Positions 1,241-19,047 of a stretch of 21,200 bases of DNA are shown here, in pieces. The notes beneath the pieces are model-generated. The model worked only from the letters and a program-made list of their open reading frames with translations, did not search any database and was not told the DNA's origin. The translations under genes and the position numbers were made by a program. The DNA lies in the IMG/VR virus record IMGVR_UViG_3300044823_000114, positions 1-21,200 of that record; one strand, written 5' to 3'. Positions within the stretch are counted from its first letter, which is position 1, and the number at the start of each line of letters is the position of its first letter. The stretch comes from a virus.

Positions 1241-3754
1241 CTAGTCACCTAATATTATGATATAAACATTATCAGTAGCCGAGGTTACTTCAATCGTACT
1301 TCCCCACGTCGCTACCGGAAATTGGCCGAAGAACGCGCATTGTTGCGGCTGTAACGTAAACGTATATAGTGTATCTTTAATCGTTAGGTTATACGTATGA
1401 GCGGTTCCGTATTGTTGATTCTGTACGCAAATAACTTCGATTCCGGTATTAGTAAACGCCGTATCGACGGGTGCGGGGATGTATGTGTAACTTGGTACAG
1501 TACCGGAACTTGAAAGGGCGATTGCAGAAAGCGCCGCCTCTAGTGGGGTATTCGCTCTCATCTTCGCAGTCGCAGTTACACCTAAAATTGAAACCTGTAC
1601 GACCGGAACGTTCGCGGTCGGGGTAACAACTGCTGTAACACCTGTAACGGCTGTCGGGATAACGCCAACGTTCGCGGTCGGATGAGCCGTCGCGGTAATT
1701 CCAACGGTGCTTGTCGAGATAACCGACACATATGCCGTAGGGGCGTTAGTAGCGGAAACACCATAGATGCTTACGTTAACTGGAAGTGAATTCGCGGTAG
1801 GATTTACCGTAGCTGTTACGCCCGATACACTCACGCCCGGTTGCGAGACATTTGCAGAAGGACTAATACTAGCGGTAACTCCCGAGACTATTATCTCAGA
1901 ATACCCAAATAAAACATAACAAATCTGCGTCGCTACAGCGTTATTAGTCGACCAGAACGGGGCAAAGCCGCCCTTTTGGAATAGATAGGCGTTAGGGTTA
2001 TGGCTATCGTTGTTTACAATCATCGTGATTCCGTAACTATTAATCCAAAAGCCTTCTCCTTCATCGAGTGAAAGCTGAGCGTAGAGCGGATACGATTGCG
2101 CCCCGCCGCTAGTATTCATTTTTAAAATATCGGTATAAAGAGGATTGTAGCCGAGAGAGAGATAGAGATTCCCGTCGTAGTATTTTATATCCTGCACGCA
2201 CGAGATAGTGGGACTTGGCGTTATAGCGCCAATATACGCTCCCGTCGTTAAATTGTATTGATAAATATACTGTGGATTATTATAACAGCCAGTGACCCAT
2301 AGGATGTTATGGTCGGGGTCTGCCGCGCATCCCGACGGGTCGAATCCCTGTGCAGAGACGTCCCAATAAGTAACAAAGCTTAAATCCGACGCGTTAAATA
2401 TGCCGATTCTACCCTGATTATGAGACGAACCGTTCATTTGTGCGGTGTAAATCTTTCCATCATAATACGTGATACCACCACAATGGTCGTCACCGGTCTG
2501 TGTAGCTATGTTAGTATTCGTAGCGATAACGTTCCAATTTGAATCGTATTTATAAAGCGCGGTCGCTCCTGAACCATAGGTGTACACTCCATCACTTTCG
2601 ACGCCCTGACTACAACTAAGCGCTCCGCTTACCGCTACCGTTCTCATCGCCGATATTACGCCTAATGCTTCGGTAGTAGCCGTGTCGTTATCGCTTATCT
2701 GTAGACTTTCGGTAGTATATTGCCCCTTTTTAGTTACCGTTGTCGTAGCGCCATTCTTATCGGTATGCCACGCGACCTGAGAGTTGTTAGACGAGTCCGT
2801 AGCGCCTATCATTAGTCTATGCCCGGTTAACACGCTTCCCGACGCGGCGTGACTATCCGACATTAGCAATACGCTAGTTGACGATATTCCCGAAGCCGCT
2901 ACTGAATCGAATACGGGGCCAAGTGTGCTAGTTGATTTTGACCAATTTCCGACCTGATACTTTCCGCCTTTTAGGCATAGTGTAATCATATAGTAACTTG
3001 CATAGCCGCTACTATTCGTGTCCCACGCGAGTCTAAACCCATTCGAGAGCATCGCGCCCGTCGCGTGACTCGTTATCGTCGTACCAGCGCCCACGCACGC
3101 GACTACAGAGCCATCGGTGACTTGTAACCTTGTAGCGGAAGACGTAGTTTGACCCGCGAGGCTATACCCCCATTTAGCCCATTGATTCGTTCCGTCATAC
3201 GCGCCAAGCATATAGAGTAAATTTGACGTATTACTTCCTGACGCGACTGCCGCACCTGCGTGAAGTACGACGTCGGGCTGAAATCCCGGGCTTGTAATAT
3301 CTTGATTTCCTGTAGTAGTCTGTGCAGTCCACGGTACAACCGTTGCGTTCGTTATGTCGCTTCCGCCGAGAGCGAGGAAGTGATACGTCGGGGCGAATGT
3401 GGTCGTTGTCCAGTTTATCGTAAACCCATCAGCGTCAAGCGACGTAAGTGCGCCTTCGTGGATAGTACTACCCGTATATTGTACATAGCCGCATATTGCG
3501 CTATTATTCATTCTACGATACGACGAGGTAGTAGTAACGCCGCTATTCGCGACGATAGCGATATAGCCTTGATGAGTGCTATCCGTAGCGAAGCCGTAGC
3601 AGAACTGACAATCGGTTCCGGCAGACCACCCCTCGGCAGCTTGCGCGGTTCCCCAAATGATAAGTGCCTTCGGCTGGAAGCCCACACCCGTAATAGATTG
3701 CGATTGCGGACTCGCTGGCGCGTCAAAGTTACCTGTTTTGGAGTAAAACGTCAT
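1241..3754 (-). CDS. Large modular virion surface protein with inserted beta-propeller and 20-residue repeats
   Basis: This 837-residue protein is probably a fibre or adhesin. Residues 1-371 plus 598-617 align with residues 1-398 of the 1385-residue protein: shared anchors include GVGFQPKALIIWG, FLALGGSD, PGFQPDVVLH, TLCLKGG and ATQICYV. Between the halves, residues about 372-597 hold blades such as GGITYYDGKIYTA, HNILWVTGCYN and QDIKYYDGNLYLS, typical of a YncE/NHL-like beta-propeller. Residues 621-740 hold six 20-residue repeats, and 745-837 form a final beta domain. There is no signal peptide or transmembrane helix. The ATG lies 4 bases after the preceding stop and no clear Shine-Dalgarno site is visible, so expression may depend on coupling. 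A role in host or glycan binding is inferred from architecture only. Confidence 0.85.
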   Translation of the reverse strand: MTFYSKTGNFDAPASPQSQSITGVGFQPKALIIWGTAQAAEGWSAGTDCQFCYGFATDSTHQGYIAIVANSGVTTTSSYRRMNNSAICGYVQYTGSTIHEGALTSLDADGFTINWTTTTFAPTYHFLALGGSDITNATVVPWTAQTTTGNQDITSPGFQPDVVLHAGAAVASGSNTSNLLYMLGAYDGTNQWAKWGYSLAGQTTSSATRLQVTDGSVVACVGAGTTITSHATGAMLSNGFRLAWDTNSSGYASYYMITLCLKGGKYQVGNWSKSTSTLGPVFDSVAASGISSTSVLLMSDSHAASGSVLTGHRLMIGATDSSNNSQVAWHTDKNGATTTVTKKGQYTTESLQISDNDTATTEALGVISAMRTVAVSGALSCSQGVESDGVYTYGSGATALYKYDSNWNVIATNTNIATQTGDDHCGGITYYDGKIYTAQMNGSSHNQGRIGIFNASDLSFVTYWDVSAQGFDPSGCAADPDHNILWVTGCYNNPQYIYQYNLTTGAYIGAITPSPTISCVQDIKYYDGNLYLSLGYNPLYTDILKMNTSGGAQSYPLYAQLSLDEGEGFWINSYGITMIVNNDSHNPNAYLFQKGGFAPFWSTNNAVATQICYVLFGYSEIIVSGVTASISPSANVSQPGVSVSGVTATVNPTANSLPVNVSIYGVSATNAPTAYVSVISTSTVGITATAHPTANVGVIPTAVTGVTAVVTPTANVPVVQVSILGVTATAKMRANTPLEAALSAIALSSSGTVPSYTYIPAPVDTAFTNTGIEVICVQNQQYGTAHTYNLTIKDTLYTFTLQPQQCAFFGQFPVATWGSTIEVTSATDNVYIIILGD
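1535..1888 (-). repeat. Six tandem 20-residue (60-bp) repeats
   Basis: Residues 621-740 of the 837-residue protein form six units with a strict 20-residue period and consensus close to VS-x-x-GVTAT-x-x-PTAN-V. The GVT/GVS/GIT core falls at residues 625, 645, 665, 685, 705 and 725. DNA copies have diverged, but blocks such as acgttcgcggtcgg recur at 1607-1620 and 1669-1682. The units are short beta hairpin-like segments, probably forming a stalk. Confidence 0.85.
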
Positions 3755-3758
3755 TTAT

Positions 3759-4190
3759 TTAGTAATCATACCATCCATTTGTCGGACACGAAACCGTGAA
3801 ATTACCGCCCTGTGCGGCTTTAGCCGTGCCGTAGGTGATGTAGCCGATTAGATATTTCGAACCCGCGTTATTATAAATCACAACGGTCTGCGCGCCGGTA
3901 AACGAAGCGCCTGTCCACGTTTGGTCGGAACTATAGAGTTTCGCATACGCGTTAGGCGCGGTTCCGGTAACTACCGGGTCGTTAAGCGACATAACTGCGC
4001 CGCCCTGTGTATAGCCGTTCGCCGTCGCTAGTTCGTTTGTATTACTATACGTTTCGTCGTTTAATTGGTCTGGTGTTAGACTGCTCGTGTAGAGCGCCAT
4101 ATATACTGTAGAAGTGGCGGCTTTCCACGTTATATCGCCTTTCACGAAGTGCAGTCTAGCCTTTGCGTAAGCATAAGCAACATCTGTCAT
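3759..4190 (-). CDS. Small virion protein, paralogue of the 162-residue protein at 9763-10251
   Basis: This 143-residue protein matches a pattern common in phage head-tail clusters: a start with STVYMALYTSS, then a Tyr-rich segment, GYTQGGAVMSL, TGAQTVVIYNNAG, YLIGYITYGTA and a final NFTVSCPTNGW. The same order of elements occurs in the 162-residue protein at 9763-10251 (YSSYATGGMNP, LISYHDFGG, GTFTVVW), so the two are likely paralogues. Its ATG has a good Shine-Dalgarno site (GAGGGAGA). It directly precedes the 837-residue repeat protein. The function is not established; a small virion or neck component is likely. Confidence 0.75.
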   Translation of the reverse strand: MTDVAYAYAKARLHFVKGDITWKAATSTVYMALYTSSLTPDQLNDETYSNTNELATANGYTQGGAVMSLNDPVVTGTAPNAYAKLYSSDQTWTGASFTGAQTVVIYNNAGSKYLIGYITYGTAKAAQGGNFTVSCPTNGWYDY

Positions 4191-4857: not shown

Positions 4858-5222
4858 TATGAATCAACTCCGATAAGTGTGATACTCTGCCCGAGCCGTA
4901 ACAATCCCGACGTGATAATATTCTCCGCGTTTGTTGAGTTATGAATACGTAGCTCGTGGTCATACGTGAGTGGAATAAGAGCTTCGGTATCGGCCTTCGC
5001 AAAAGCGAGCGTTACAGACTCTTCATCTACGTTAATCGAAATTCCGCCGTTACCATCGACTAGGTTATCCTTCTCTAATACGATTCCAGTTAGCGTGTGA
5101 TACATCTTCCACGTAAACGTAGCCCCTTCGACGTCTAGCGGTTCTCCCGCTTTTACTATCGGGATACTAACGGCTATGTCCTCTCCCGCGTCGAATCCTA
5201 TATCTTGATTAATTGCAGCCAT
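4857..5222 (-). CDS. Small Ig-like beta-sandwich virion protein
   Basis: This 121-residue protein has the pattern of a single beta-sandwich domain seen in baseplate-upper-type phage proteins: an N-terminal GEDIAVSIPIV, then GEPLDVEGATFTWKMYHTLTG, VDEESVTLAFAKADTEALIP and a closing YDHELRIHNST. It overlaps its upstream and downstream neighbours by one base each (TAATG on both sides), placing it between the 1385-residue repeat protein and the connector in one coupled set. It could be an assembly partner or cap for the large protein. The fold is read from pattern only and the function is not known. Confidence 0.75.
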   Translation of the reverse strand: MAAINQDIGFDAGEDIAVSIPIVKAGEPLDVEGATFTWKMYHTLTGIVLEKDNLVDGNGGISINVDEESVTLAFAKADTEALIPLTYDHELRIHNSTNAENIITSGLLRLGQSITLIGVDS

Positions 5223-8200
5223 TAAATCCCACCATTAAGTGTAAAATCATCGTTAACCTCGCCGGAGAGGTCTTTAGTATCGGTTTTATCTCCGTTTATT
5301 GAAAACTCGGTATCTACGTCTCCGCTTGCTTCGAGCGTAGAAACATTGCCATTAAGGCTAAACGAATCATCTACTTCACCGGCTGCGTTGATGATTCTCT
5401 GAATTTGATAAATATAAATTTCTTTAATGTCTATCGCATTAGCGACGCACCCTACAGCGCTTACTAAGATACTTGAACTAATCGAGAAGCTTACGGGTTC
5501 ATAATCCGCGACGCCGCTCGGAATAAGACGTATAATGGCGTTAATCGAAGGTGTTACGCTAAGCGAACTCGCGATACCATTTACCATAGAGGCCGCTATA
5601 GACAGCGTAGTTGAAGGCGCTAATGACATAGCGACACCATTTGGTTGCGCTACAACAGGGCCAACCGTCGGCGTTACGCCACTCGCTGATGAAACGCTAC
5701 TCGGTTGTGTCGTAAATGAGTTAAGCGAAACAAAGGATGATTGCGCGAAAGAACTACAGCTCGGTTGTCCTACGAATACAATAAGCGGTGGGGTGCCTAC
5801 GAAAACGCTTGTTCCTGCAACGAAGTCGGAAACCGCACCCGGCGCATTTACCGAAACGTTTGAGCTAACTATAAGTGAAGATAATTGATAATCCGCTACC
5901 GCCTCGACCTGTGAGGCGAGTGTACTTAATGAAGCTTTAATTGATTGTATAATTGCTACGCCGCTCGGTTGCGTACCGGTTACGCTCATTGAAATATATG
6001 GTAACTGCTGGTCAGCGACGCCATCGACCTGCGAGACTAATGCGTTTAATATGGGCGTAATTGATTGAACGTTCGAAGTCGCCGACGGCTGTGCGCAAGC
6101 GATGGCTATACTCGAAATGACGTTTAGGCTATCTGCTATACCACTCGGTGCGCTTGTAGACGTAGAAAGCGATACTACGGGTAGGAGTGCCGCGGTTGTA
6201 CATCCAACGGCGCTTACTACGGGACTATTTATCGGAAATGCCACGTTAGGTAGCTGCTGGTCAGCGATACATCCCGGTTGGGATACATAGACTATATCGC
6301 TCGCGGAAGGAATGATAGCTGGCTGATACGTTGCTACGCAGCCCGAGCACGTTCCAGTTACGCCTAACGACGTTGACGCGGCTTGCGTAGTCGAAATACA
6401 GCCGACTTGAGAAACGTTAGGCGAGTTAATCGGAAACGCTAAGGCCGGTGCTTGAAAATCTGCTGTGCATCCTACGAGACTAGTCGCGACGTTTAGCGAA
6501 GAGGTTATCGGCTGTGCTGATGAGATACTACCCGGTTGCGTTCCCGATATATTCGAGCTAACGGTAAACGTAACCGCTTGCGTAGTAGCTATGCTACTTG
6601 GCTGCGTGCTAGTTGTGCTAAGCCCAACAGAAGCAGTTAAAAGGTTTAAAATACATCCCGGCTGCCCTACAACTACCTGCGCTGCCGTTAAGAGTGTGAT
6701 GGGTTGATACGTTGCGATACCGCTTGGTTGTTTGCCGGTTGCGCTTAATGACAATGCTACAGCTTGCGTAGCCGTAGAACATCCGACTTGTGGTGCTAAA
6801 GGTGAATTAATAGGAATACTAATCGATGCAGCTTGAGAACTAGCAGTACCGCCTAATTGACTTACCGCGCTACTTAACGATGATGCTATTGCTTGTATCG
6901 TCGACGTCGCGCTCGGCTGTGTGCCGATTATGCTAGATGTAACTAAAACTGATTGAATGGTAGAACTTGCGCCTAACTGTGCGACCGTCGTGGCTAACGC
7001 GATAGATGCAGTTAAGAAGTCTGAGATACATCCCGGCTGACCTACAATTACCTGCTCAGCACCTGCCGAGATAGTAATCGGCTGATACGTTGCGATACAG
7101 CTAGGTTGTTTGCCGGTTGCGCTTAATGATAATGCTACAATTTGTGTAGCCGCAGAACAGCCAACTTGTGAAACGTTAGGTGAGTTAATAGGGATACTAA
7201 TCGACGTAGCTTGTTGAGTAGCGGTACATCCTAATTGACTTACCGCGCTACCTAACGATGATGCTACCGCTTGTATCGTCGATGTTGCCGCTGGTTGTGA
7301 GCCGGTTATACTCGAGCTAAGAGAAGCCGCTTGAGATGTAGAACTCGCGCCCGGCTGTGTTCCGGTAGATGTAAGTTTAGTAGAAGCAGTTAAGAAGTTT
7401 GAAACACATCCCGGCTGCGATACCGTTACGCTTTCGGATTCGTTTAGCGTAATAGGTTGGTATGTAGCGATACAGCTCGGTTGTGTGCCTGTTATTCCTA
7501 AAGACGTAGATATAGCTTGTATCGTAGAGATACTAGCCGGTTGCGGTGCCGCGACGTTTGAGCTAACCATAAACGTAACGGCTTGCATATTAGAGGTTCC
7601 GCTTGGTTGCGTGCCGGATACCCCTAATGAGGCTAATGCGGCTTGTCTATCGAAAGTTCCGCTCGGTTGAGTTCCCGTTATACTAAAGCTAGTCGCTACA
7701 GCTTGTTTATCTACCGTACAGCCTAGTTGCGAAGCTGATGCACCAATAGATGATGCCACCGATTGTCTATCCGACGTGCCGCTAGGTTGTGGTGCGGAAG
7801 CGTTTGAGCTAACGGTAAACGTAACCGCTTGATAAGTGGAAGTACATCCTGATTGACTTCCAGTAATTTTTAACGCAGTCGCTACGGCTTGTTTATCTAA
7901 CGTTCCGCCCGGTTGTGTTCCGGTTATGCTACTTGAAATCGATGCCGCTTGTCTATCGGCCGTACAGCCTCGTTGTGTGCCGCTTAGCGACGTACTAATA
8001 GCAACCGCTTGTTGCGCCGATGTCGCGCCCGGCTGTGTTCCAGTTATATTCGAGCTAGACTTAACTGTAATCGCTTGATAGGTCGAAGTCGCTCCCGGTT
8101 GGGTTCCGGTTATATTTGAGGTAACCCCAATTGCTTGTTGTGCCGCCGTACTTCCGCTCTGTGTTCCGGTCACGGAAGCGTTCATTACGCCAGTATTAAA

Positions 8201-9379
8201 CGTAATATAACAAATCTGCGTAGCGGTAGCGTTATTTGTGGCCCACGTCGTCGTAAACTGATTTACCGTTCCAGAAAATGATGTAGTAGCAAGCGCGTCG
8301 GCAGTTTCCGCGTCGTTATCACACACCACGATTGAATTAGCCGTGTACCACCCTCGCGCGGTTACCGTTGTTGTAACGCCGTTTTTATCTTGAAAAGCGC
8401 CTGTATAGCGGTTTGTGCCGTCGTCGGCGCCTACTGTAAGACGTAAGCCAGCTATAATACTCGTTGACGCGGCAGTACTCGCCGTTACAAAGAGCGCACC
8501 TACGGGTACTGACTTACACGTACAGGTAACTGTATCTGTACTTCCGCTAGCGCCGGTCGTTTTCGACCAGCTACCACATCCTAATTCAGACGCGGCTCCG
8601 CCTTTTAAACATAAAGAAAATACGTATTGCGTTGAGCTAGTATTCGTGCCGAAGTTAATAGAAAAACCATCCGAGCCCATCGCACTATACGCGCCTAAGT
8701 TAATTTGAGCATTATTCCAGAGCCCCGAGATACAATTATCCGTTCTCTGTTGTCGATTGGTTACGGTTGTCGTATCGCCGGTCATAGCGTTAACCGACGC
8801 GACCCATTGATTTCCGCTACTATCCATAGCGCCTATCATCTGCACCGCGCTAGTTCCGGTGCCTATCGCGTTCTGTTGGTCGGTAAAGTGAAGAACTAAA
8901 TCCGGTTTAAATCCAACGCCGGTTACGCTCTGAACGCCCGTTCCTGCGGCAATCTGCCACGACTTAACGTACGCGTTCGATAAATCACCACCGAGGGCGA
9001 TATATGAAATTTGATAACCCGACGCGTACGTAGTACTCCATGTTATCGTGAATCCGGTAGGGCTAGAGTTAAACGACGTGAGCGTCGCTTCGAGCCTAGT
9101 AGTTCCGGTAGAGTCTACTTGCGTTATGCACTTAGTAGTAGAGTTTCTACGTGTCGCGACTGAGGTAGTCTGTGCGGCGAGCGACGTCGTACCTGTAGAC
9201 GCCATATTCGAGCTAGACGTCGCTACACCGATTCCATTTAGATATGTGACCCACCAACCGGCTACCGCGACGGCGTGAAAAAAGATAATAGCCTTTGGGG
9301 TAAACGGCGTGCTAACTGTCTGCGCGCCATTAGACGTAGGAGAGGTAAACACCCCAACAGAAGTAGTTATACCGGCCAT
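5222..9379 (-). CDS. Giant repeat-rich virion surface protein (1385 residues), fibre or adhesin-like
   Basis: Residues 1-398 form a module shared with the 837-residue protein, itself two related halves (PFTPKAIIFF and GVGFKPDLVLH; ISYIALGGDL and FSLCLKGG). Residues about 402-1313 hold some 44 degenerate repeats of 17-24 residues centred on TGTQPSGTSTYQAV or SQVGC variants. About 20 units carry a Cys, unusual for a phage fibre. Residues 1331-1384 hold three copies of GEVDDSFSLNG-like motifs. There is no signal peptide or membrane helix, so it is probably a virion component, not a secreted protein. The ATG overlaps the stop of the Cys-rich 127-residue gene (TAATG) behind AGGA. Ser, Thr, Ala and Gln dominate, while Lys, Glu, Met and His are scarce in the repeats. 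A role in host binding or head decoration is inferred. Confidence 0.85.
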   Translation of the reverse strand: MAGITTSVGVFTSPTSNGAQTVSTPFTPKAIIFFHAVAVAGWWVTYLNGIGVATSSSNMASTGTTSLAAQTTSVATRRNSTTKCITQVDSTGTTRLEATLTSFNSSPTGFTITWSTTYASGYQISYIALGGDLSNAYVKSWQIAAGTGVQSVTGVGFKPDLVLHFTDQQNAIGTGTSAVQMIGAMDSSGNQWVASVNAMTGDTTTVTNRQQRTDNCISGLWNNAQINLGAYSAMGSDGFSINFGTNTSSTQYVFSLCLKGGAASELGCGSWSKTTGASGSTDTVTCTCKSVPVGALFVTASTAASTSIIAGLRLTVGADDGTNRYTGAFQDKNGVTTTVTARGWYTANSIVVCDNDAETADALATTSFSGTVNQFTTTWATNNATATQICYITFNTGVMNASVTGTQSGSTAAQQAIGVTSNITGTQPGATSTYQAITVKSSSNITGTQPGATSAQQAVAISTSLSGTQRGCTADRQAASISSSITGTQPGGTLDKQAVATALKITGSQSGCTSTYQAVTFTVSSNASAPQPSGTSDRQSVASSIGASASQLGCTVDKQAVATSFSITGTQPSGTFDRQAALASLGVSGTQPSGTSNMQAVTFMVSSNVAAPQPASISTIQAISTSLGITGTQPSCIATYQPITLNESESVTVSQPGCVSNFLTASTKLTSTGTQPGASSTSQAASLSSSITGSQPAATSTIQAVASSLGSAVSQLGCTATQQATSISIPINSPNVSQVGCSAATQIVALSLSATGKQPSCIATYQPITISAGAEQVIVGQPGCISDFLTASIALATTVAQLGASSTIQSVLVTSSIIGTQPSATSTIQAIASSLSSAVSQLGGTASSQAASISIPINSPLAPQVGCSTATQAVALSLSATGKQPSGIATYQPITLLTAAQVVVGQPGCILNLLTASVGLSTTSTQPSSIATTQAVTFTVSSNISGTQPGSISSAQPITSSLNVATSLVGCTADFQAPALAFPINSPNVSQVGCISTTQAASTSLGVTGTCSGCVATYQPAIIPSASDIVYVSQPGCIADQQLPNVAFPINSPVVSAVGCTTAALLPVVSLSTSTSAPSGIADSLNVISSIAIACAQPSATSNVQSITPILNALVSQVDGVADQQLPYISMSVTGTQPSGVAIIQSIKASLSTLASQVEAVADYQLSSLIVSSNVSVNAPGAVSDFVAGTSVFVGTPPLIVFVGQPSCSSFAQSSFVSLNSFTTQPSSVSSASGVTPTVGPVVAQPNGVAMSLAPSTTLSIAASMVNGIASSLSVTPSINAIIRLIPSGVADYEPVSFSISSSILVSAVGCVANAIDIKEIYIYQIQRIINAAGEVDDSFSLNGNVSTLEASGDVDTEFSINGDKTDTKDLSGEVNDDFTLNGGI
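5441..8176 (-). repeat. About 44 degenerate tandem repeats of roughly 21 residues
   Basis: Codons for residues 402-1313 of the 1385-residue protein. The best-kept units read TGTQPSGTSxxQAVTxSLx; others replace the core by VSQPGC, VSQLGC or VSQVGC. The count was made by eye from Q-P or Q-x-G cores and may be off by two or three. Similarity is clearer in protein than in DNA except in the super-repeat section, so most copies are old. Confidence 0.85.
6338..7471 (-). repeat. Higher-order super-repeat, three periods of about 126 residues (378 bp)
   Basis: The segment IATYQPIT starts at residues 637, 762 and 888, with a weaker copy (VATYQPAI) at 1015, so groups of six units recur as a block. Inside each block the order is the same: YQP unit, SQPGC or GQPGC unit, a TQ/AQ unit, an STIQA unit, an SQLG unit and an SPxxxQVGC unit. 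DNA supports a recent duplication: 26 bases at 6726-6751 are identical to 7104-7129, exactly 378 bp apart. Confidence 0.85.
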
Positions 9380-9762: not shown

Positions 9763-10251
9763 TTACGACGCTGCCGAGATGGTTATCTTAAATACGCCCG
9801 GTTGTGGTGAGTTAGCCCATACTACGGTAAACGTACCGCTTGTTACCTGTTGCACACCGCCAAAGTCGTGATAGCTAATTAGTGGTGTGGTCGAGGTCGT
9901 TATCGCTGCACCGTCGCCTTTTACGAACGCCATATACGCGATAAACGTAGCAGACGACCATTGACAGTCGGCCGCGTCGTAGTAGCATACGCTAGAGCTA
10001 AGCGCACCGGTTGTTATAGAGGTCGGGTTCATTCCACCCGTCGCGTATGACGAATAGGTTCCGTGTGAAACCTCGTGGGCTTCACTTGTAATGTCTGCAT
10101 ACGTAGCGTATGAGGTTTTATTAGTCCCACAATCGGTTAGGCACGTAGTATCGCCGAGAGCGCACCATTTCGTAGCTTGCTGGCCGGTCGTCCAATTAGT
10201 GAGGGCGGAACCCATCTTAACCATTGCGTTATCAAATACTGCTGAAGTCAT
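9763..10251 (-). CDS. Small virion protein, paralogue of the 143-residue protein at 3759-4190
   Basis: This 162-residue protein shares its layout with the 143-residue protein upstream of the other large repeat protein: an early helix, a Tyr-rich segment TYSSYATGGM, IAYMAFVKGDG in place of the VVIYN strand, PLISYHDFGGVQQVTSGTFTVVW and a closing strand PGVFKITIS. Unlike its paralogue it holds five cysteines (30, 37, 41, 89, 96). The family is frequent next to phage head genes but has no settled function. The ATG overlaps the preceding stop as ATGA and has a good Shine-Dalgarno site (GGAGAG). Confidence 0.75.
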   Translation of the reverse strand: MTSAVFDNAMVKMGSALTNWTTGQQATKWCALGDTTCLTDCGTNKTSYATYADITSEAHEVSHGTYSSYATGGMNPTSITTGALSSSVCYYDAADCQWSSATFIAYMAFVKGDGAAITTSTTPLISYHDFGGVQQVTSGTFTVVWANSPQPGVFKITISAAS

Positions 10252-18543: not shown

Positions 18544-19047
18544 TTACACCTCTAAAAATTCAAGTGATTTTTTATATGCCTCGATAAGTTCGTCTCTACT
18601 CGGTAATTCACCTCGTTTTGTTTTAAGTCTATGACACGTCGCGCAAAGAATCTGAAACCCATCTGGAAAATCATTCGCGATAATCCACGCGGTAATAGAA
18701 TTAGACCCCACTTCTACTCGGTGTTTCGCACCGTCTCCGTTTTTATGGTCAATCTCTAAACAATCATAAATCGGTAATCCACAATTTGTACAATACAGCG
18801 TTCCATCTGTATAATGTGTAATAACTTTAAGTCTGTACCGCTCACTTGCACAATTACGTTTTTCCGGGTGTTCCCAATAATACTCCCGTTGTTTTCGGTT
18901 ACGTTCTTCGCTAAATTCGGGAATCTTTCGTTGTTCTCGTAGATTTTTACGCCTACGTTCTTTCTGACCTTCGCGATATTCTTTGTTATTCTTATACCGC
19001 TCGCGAGCATATTCGCGATATTCGGGGGTTTTATAATCTGTACTCAA
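18544..19047 (-). CDS. HNH endonuclease, free-standing
   Basis: This 167-residue protein has a basic helical N-terminal half (residues 8-75, rich in Arg, Lys and Glu) likely to bind DNA, and a C-terminal HNH domain: C86-x2-C89, the catalytic-type LEIDHKNGDG with H101 and N103, GFQILCATCHRLK with C135, C138 and H139. The Cys pairs should hold a structural zinc. Such stand-alone nucleases in phages are often homing elements, or assist packaging when they sit near terminase and portal genes. Start is TTG at 19047, the first possible one after an in-frame stop; the Shine-Dalgarno signal is weak. Confidence 0.88.
   Translation of the reverse strand: MSTDYKTPEYREYARERYKNNKEYREGQKERRRKNLREQRKIPEFSEERNRKQREYYWEHPEKRNCASERYRLKVITHYTDGTLYCTNCGLPIYDCLEIDHKNGDGAKHRVEVGSNSITAWIIANDFPDGFQILCATCHRLKTKRGELPSRDELIEAYKKSLEFLEV

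Follow-up and report, generated by a model that had tools for sequence, protein, structure and literature searches.

A predicted five-bladed propeller nested in a hairpin turn of a three-repeat phage scaffold protein

The window, that is, the whole 21.2-kb stretch of a virus record analysed here, carries the late genes of a tailed phage on its minus strand. Their order is portal, a PHROG major-head/protease-type match and major capsid, then head-tail adaptor, head closure and neck genes. Two large proteins are encoded among them, one of 837 aa (1241-3754) and one of 1385 aa (5222-9379). According to the Pfam and PHROG annotation of the window, the gene for the 837-aa protein sits between head-tail connector genes, in the late structural cluster. 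The genes that concern us are the following.

1241..3754, minus strand: gene for the 837-aa putative virion protein with the nested propeller-like domain (open reading frame; present in two assemblies)
3759..4190, minus strand: phrog_644 gene, immediate upstream neighbour of the 837-aa gene (PHROG E 2e-15)
8189..9379, minus strand: paralogous uninterrupted scaffold, which forms the N-terminal part of the 1385-aa protein (gene 5222-9379; BLASTP 37%; three intact repeats)
9763..10251, minus strand: second phrog_644 gene, lying two genes upstream of the gene for the 1385-aa protein (PHROG E 2e-7)

A sequence-only reading of this DNA had proposed that the two large proteins share an N-terminal module, interrupted in the 837-aa protein by about 225 residues of propeller-like blades. 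The common module was recovered by BLASTP, which aligned aa 8-373 of the 837-aa protein with the 1385-aa protein at 37% identity (E 3e-42). What that reading had missed is that the module, hereafter called the scaffold, consists in both proteins of three tandem repeats of about 130 aa each, with the consensus TGVGFQPKAII ... SFDSDGFTL ... YLALGG. A repeat HMM was built from 24 scaffolds, with the 837-aa protein left out, and an AlphaFold2 model was made that covers aa 1-622, its strands being assigned with DSSP. The protein divides as follows.

3359..3754, minus strand: scaffold repeat 1, aa 1-132 (repeat HMM E 4e-31; model pLDDT above 90)
2963..3358, minus strand: scaffold repeat 2, aa 133-264 (repeat HMM E 6e-26)
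2642..2962, minus strand: scaffold repeat 3, N-terminal part, aa 265-371 (HMM positions 4-106, E 3e-14; strand 360-371)
1970..2641, minus strand: inserted five-bladed propeller-like domain, aa 372-595 (Foldseek; homologues L106 and L037; blade motifs)
1895..1969, minus strand: scaffold repeat 3, C-terminal part, aa 596-620, GFAPFWSTNNAVATQICYVLFG region (HMM positions 105-130)
1511..1894, minus strand: stalk of short degenerate repeats of the V.GVTAT..PTAN type, aa 621-748 (from the translation; boundary approximate)
1244..1510, minus strand: C-terminal region, aa 749-837 (no family match in Pfam, PHROG or NCBIfam searches)

Stalk-like stretches also follow both scaffolds of contig L003. In the 1385-aa protein, the part past the scaffold (5222-8188, minus strand) is a very long stalk of degenerate repeats of about 20 residues, of the GTQPGATSTYQAV type, at the end of which stand three copies of a (V/E)D..F(S/T)(L/I)NG motif.

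The repeat HMM matched repeats 1 and 2 of the 837-aa protein whole, and repeat 3 in two pieces lying 221 residues apart, the second of which (E 0.04) is weak alone. The right flank was also recognized by BLASTP, aa 578-649 and 578-623 matching two scaffolds of the related phage L109 with E 1.5e-7 and 8e-7, respectively. An insert of about 224 residues, with the alignment resuming on both sides, had thus been rightly perceived, and its proposed position (1964-2641, i.e. aa 372-597 of the minus-strand frame 1241-3754) was right within a few residues. At the level of sequence, these comparisons show that a complete domain has been inserted at one turn with the scaffold kept: as in nesting of the evolved-Dit type, a foreign domain lies within one scaffold domain and the flanks resume around it.

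We considered the possibility that there is no functional nesting, and that the arrangement results from an assembly chimera or from a recent broken fusion, as could be suspected from the presence of the insert in one lineage only and from the weak HMM match of the short C-terminal half. Yet, the same junctions were present in a second contig from another dataset, with 100% protein identity in the region, which makes an assembly chimera unlikely. The reading frame is open throughout and the GC3 of the insert (0.469) is normal for this phage (mean 0.460); its composition is not foreign and therefore does not point to a recent insertion. With the C-terminal half also finding its counterpart in L109, we regard this explanation as very improbable.

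In the AlphaFold2 model, nearly half of the residues had a pLDDT >90, and these are scaffold residues with few exceptions; the strands of the C-terminal part of repeat 3 (596-603 and 610-619) reached 85-93. The insert occupies the last long hairpin of repeat 3, between strands 360-371 and 596-603. In repeat 1 the matching strands are 97-107 and 110-118, and in repeat 2 they are 225-236 and 239-244; a turn of two residues joins each pair, which indicates that a two-residue turn has been replaced by about 224 residues in repeat 3. Both flanks are predicted to belong to one beta-sandwich domain. Since the alignment given to the predictor already joined the flanks, the model supports the strand pairing without being independent proof of it. 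A search with the whole 622-residue model did not provide a reliable name for the scaffold fold, the output of Foldseek being swamped by propeller matches, and the BFVD matches were weak, save for a protein of an uncultured phage that showed 26% identity across 140 columns.

The insert contains five DG-type blade motifs (at aa 387, 431, 481, 526 and 565), spaced by 39-50 residues, so that its sequence repeats of about 40-50 residues correspond to five blades, the last of which is poorly modelled. Because the propeller of L106, a homologue described below, was misplaced when aligned with the scaffold set, scaffold and propeller were modelled separately, the input for the latter being the window sequence and one homologue. 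The resulting model had a mean pLDDT of 67 and a pTM of 0.72, with blades 2-4 mostly at 70-90 and a poor last part. Foldseek found 820 PDB matches to it at E ≤ 0.001, and the best 50 of these 820 were overwhelmingly propellers; the top matches were the five-bladed glutaminyl cyclases 3mbr (E 2e-9, TM 0.65), 2iwa and 2faw. The insert is thus predicted to fold as a five-bladed propeller, in line with the blades initially read from the sequence, though the confidence of the model is modest. At the sequence level, Pfam returned for the propeller sub-threshold matches of propeller type alone (KIB1-4, DUF1513), and phmmer found nothing significant in the PDB.

Two homologues of the propeller were identified. 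One lies in a 1482-aa protein encoded on a different viral contig, L106 (36% identity over 183 aa, E 6e-22), which provides a second phage context for the domain. The other, L037, is a free-standing, secreted-looking protein of the actinobacterium Embleya (27% over 162 aa). L037 clears the gathering cut-off of DUF6923 (PF21959) with 30.7 vs 27 bits, and the window propeller is in this way linked to that family by homology; unlike L037, however, it is not itself a DUF6923 domain (no match at E ≤ 10), nor is it free-standing. In L106, the propeller (5992-6681) is near the C-terminus with other sequence on each side, and is perhaps a second independent nested insertion. The motif hits L031-L036 were mostly unrelated; L033 and L029 look like other phage propellers but have a weak link to the window. 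In tblastn searches, the scaffold and both propellers had no relative among cultured phages.

The structural matches raised the question of whether the propeller, instead of serving as a binding head, could be a virion-displayed enzyme with a glycan-degrading or cyclase-like activity. Its best fold matches are plant-type glutaminyl cyclases (3mbr, 2iwa), which likewise have five blades, and phage endosialidases are also propellers, as pointed out in the work on phage phi11 (PMC4901313). Yet, its identity with the plant-type cyclases is 12-15%, with no sequence-family match, and neither Pfam nor NCBIfam assigned it to an enzyme family. Furthermore, glycines, aspartates and tyrosines that belong to the blade motifs make up most of the residues common to the three propeller homologues. 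An enzymatic function appears quite unlikely to us on these grounds.

The distribution of the scaffold was assessed by scanning viral and genome contigs; the genome scan was seeded with a closer set of eight scaffolds, the 24-row alignment being too diverse as a seed. At least 87 distinct scaffold proteins were found, the two of the window included, and 73 of the 87 have three or more near-complete repeats (at least 235 such repeats altogether). No Pfam or PHROG family matched the scaffold. The sequence-only reading had also interpreted the insertion as the swap of a binding head, and this part found no support: none of the other members among these at least 87 proteins carries a large insert, and hence a different domain, at the turn of repeat 3. 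The nearest case, L053 (Archangiaceae bin), uses another loop: close to where repeat 3 begins, some 205 additional residues form a different, beta-looking domain. What stands of the initial proposal is a propeller-like domain nested in a turn of a shared scaffold. Two candidates for further split repeats, L100 and L104, were rejected, as they represent a divergent subtype with shortened repeats.

Other scaffold proteins carry additional domains outside the repeats. In L003/L109, a PHP-like stretch separates two uninterrupted scaffolds, and in L013 the scaffold is followed by a LamG domain. The PHP-like stretch (HCHTTNSDG...SDHDY, in L003/L109:1-3462, minus strand) matches Pfam PHP with E 0.025, below the cut-off. 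Adjacent pairs of scaffold genes occur in L018 (7215-9653) and L097 (2992-6674), indicating that several scaffold copies per genome are not unusual.

The neighbours of the other scaffold genes belong to tail fibre, collagen-like minor tail, head closure and head-tail adaptor families, and from these virion genes the scaffold family appears to belong to the virion. In L109, the uninterrupted scaffold lies beside the same neighbour as in the window: a phrog_644 homologue, 63% identical, precedes the scaffold gene. This pair is downstream of the tape-measure and Dit-like genes in L109, whereas that of the window is among connector genes. Genes similar to phrog_644 closely precede scaffold genes in the window (both copies), L003, L006, L010, L012, L017, L054, L067 and L097; their product is possibly a partner or attachment protein for the scaffold proteins.

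We also considered that the propeller might be a structural or assembly element (a spacer, a trimer platform or a contact with another virion protein) that does not bind the host. Propellers often act as protein-protein platforms, and the 837-aa gene stands among head and neck connector genes. However, the propeller is missing from both the paralogue in the same genome and the related phage, so the scaffold does not need it, and one of its homologues, L037, is found on its own as a secreted-looking protein. We therefore consider a purely structural role fairly unlikely.

Two known systems provide closer parallels. The receptor-binding protein Gp45 of Staphylococcus phage phi11 contains a five-bladed propeller that is structurally closest to glutamine cyclotransferase and that its authors think holds GlcNAc (PMC4901313). 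The window propeller resembles it, when compared by fold, in being a predicted five-bladed domain of a putative phage structural protein for which glutamine cyclotransferase is closest, but the Gp45 propeller follows in line after a coiled-coil stem and belongs to a trimeric baseplate platform, whereas that of the window interrupts a hairpin turn in an unrelated scaffold. In lactococcal 936 phages, evolved Dit contains carbohydrate-binding modules as internal insertions, and neck passage proteins bear such modules as well (PMC6669499). A binding domain is there housed within a conserved virion protein or carried by neck fibres, a placement that the putative binding domain of the window would share. 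These modules offer an extra host-binding surface beside the main receptor-binding protein, and the same is proposed for the 837-aa protein. The differences are that their cargo is BppA-like, with tested binding, and their scaffold is Dit or a neck protein, while here a propeller with putative binding is carried by an unnamed three-repeat protein. That a phage scaffold can house a binding domain in one of its loops is thus already known from evolved Dit and neck passage proteins, and domain shuffling is general in tail fibres (PMC10684548). The scaffold family and its combination with a propeller are undescribed in the libraries and literature searched.

These parallels with phi11 and with evolved Dit and neck passage proteins favour an accessory adhesin over a structural element or an enzyme. 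Taking the analysis as a whole, we think it probable that the 837-aa protein is an accessory virion adhesin, whose nested propeller would most likely bind surface carbohydrate or another envelope ligand. The phage, a tailed one that is uncultured, would bear the protein as an appendage of its head, neck or tail. At some ancestral stage, two long strands of repeat 3 would have exchanged the two-residue turn that joined them for a whole five-bladed propeller, whose neighbouring ends are suited to such a position. The scaffold would still fold, showing the propeller next to the repeat stalk. We infer the position on the virion, surface display, ligand binding and adhesion; the function of the propeller as a binding head is suggested, and its putative role in host range is possible.

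The 837-aa protein need not be the main receptor-binding protein, as the same phage encodes a separate giant lectin-like protein after its distal-tail gene. The companion contig L001/L110 overlaps the window and runs on into tape measure, Dit and this giant protein, which is a candidate for the main receptor-binding protein. The open frame (L110:1-7446, minus strand; at least 2482 aa) comes after Dit and a 134-aa gene and, judged by inspection, contains LamG-looking and lectin-type-propeller-looking stretches.

These results point to a phage structural family that standard libraries miss. They also provide a clear case of a whole propeller accommodated in a two-residue turn, for which the uninterrupted paralogue in the same genome and the related phage serve as built-in controls. 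If the propeller does bind cell-surface glycans, the scaffold would be a natural insertion-tolerant display domain. More tentatively, and with considerable doubt, the scaffold could serve many phages as a display platform that has so far escaped description, its turns, and those of repeat 3 in particular, taking up entire foreign domains while the fold is preserved. On that tentative reading, the phages of many uncultured bacteria might be trialling adhesins on it, such as the propeller, the L053 domain, the PHP-like stretch of L003 and the LamG domain of L013.

Elsewhere in the window, beside the portal gene, a 167-aa open reading frame (18544-19047, minus strand) with Cys and His motifs resembles an HNH endonuclease and is possibly a homing gene.
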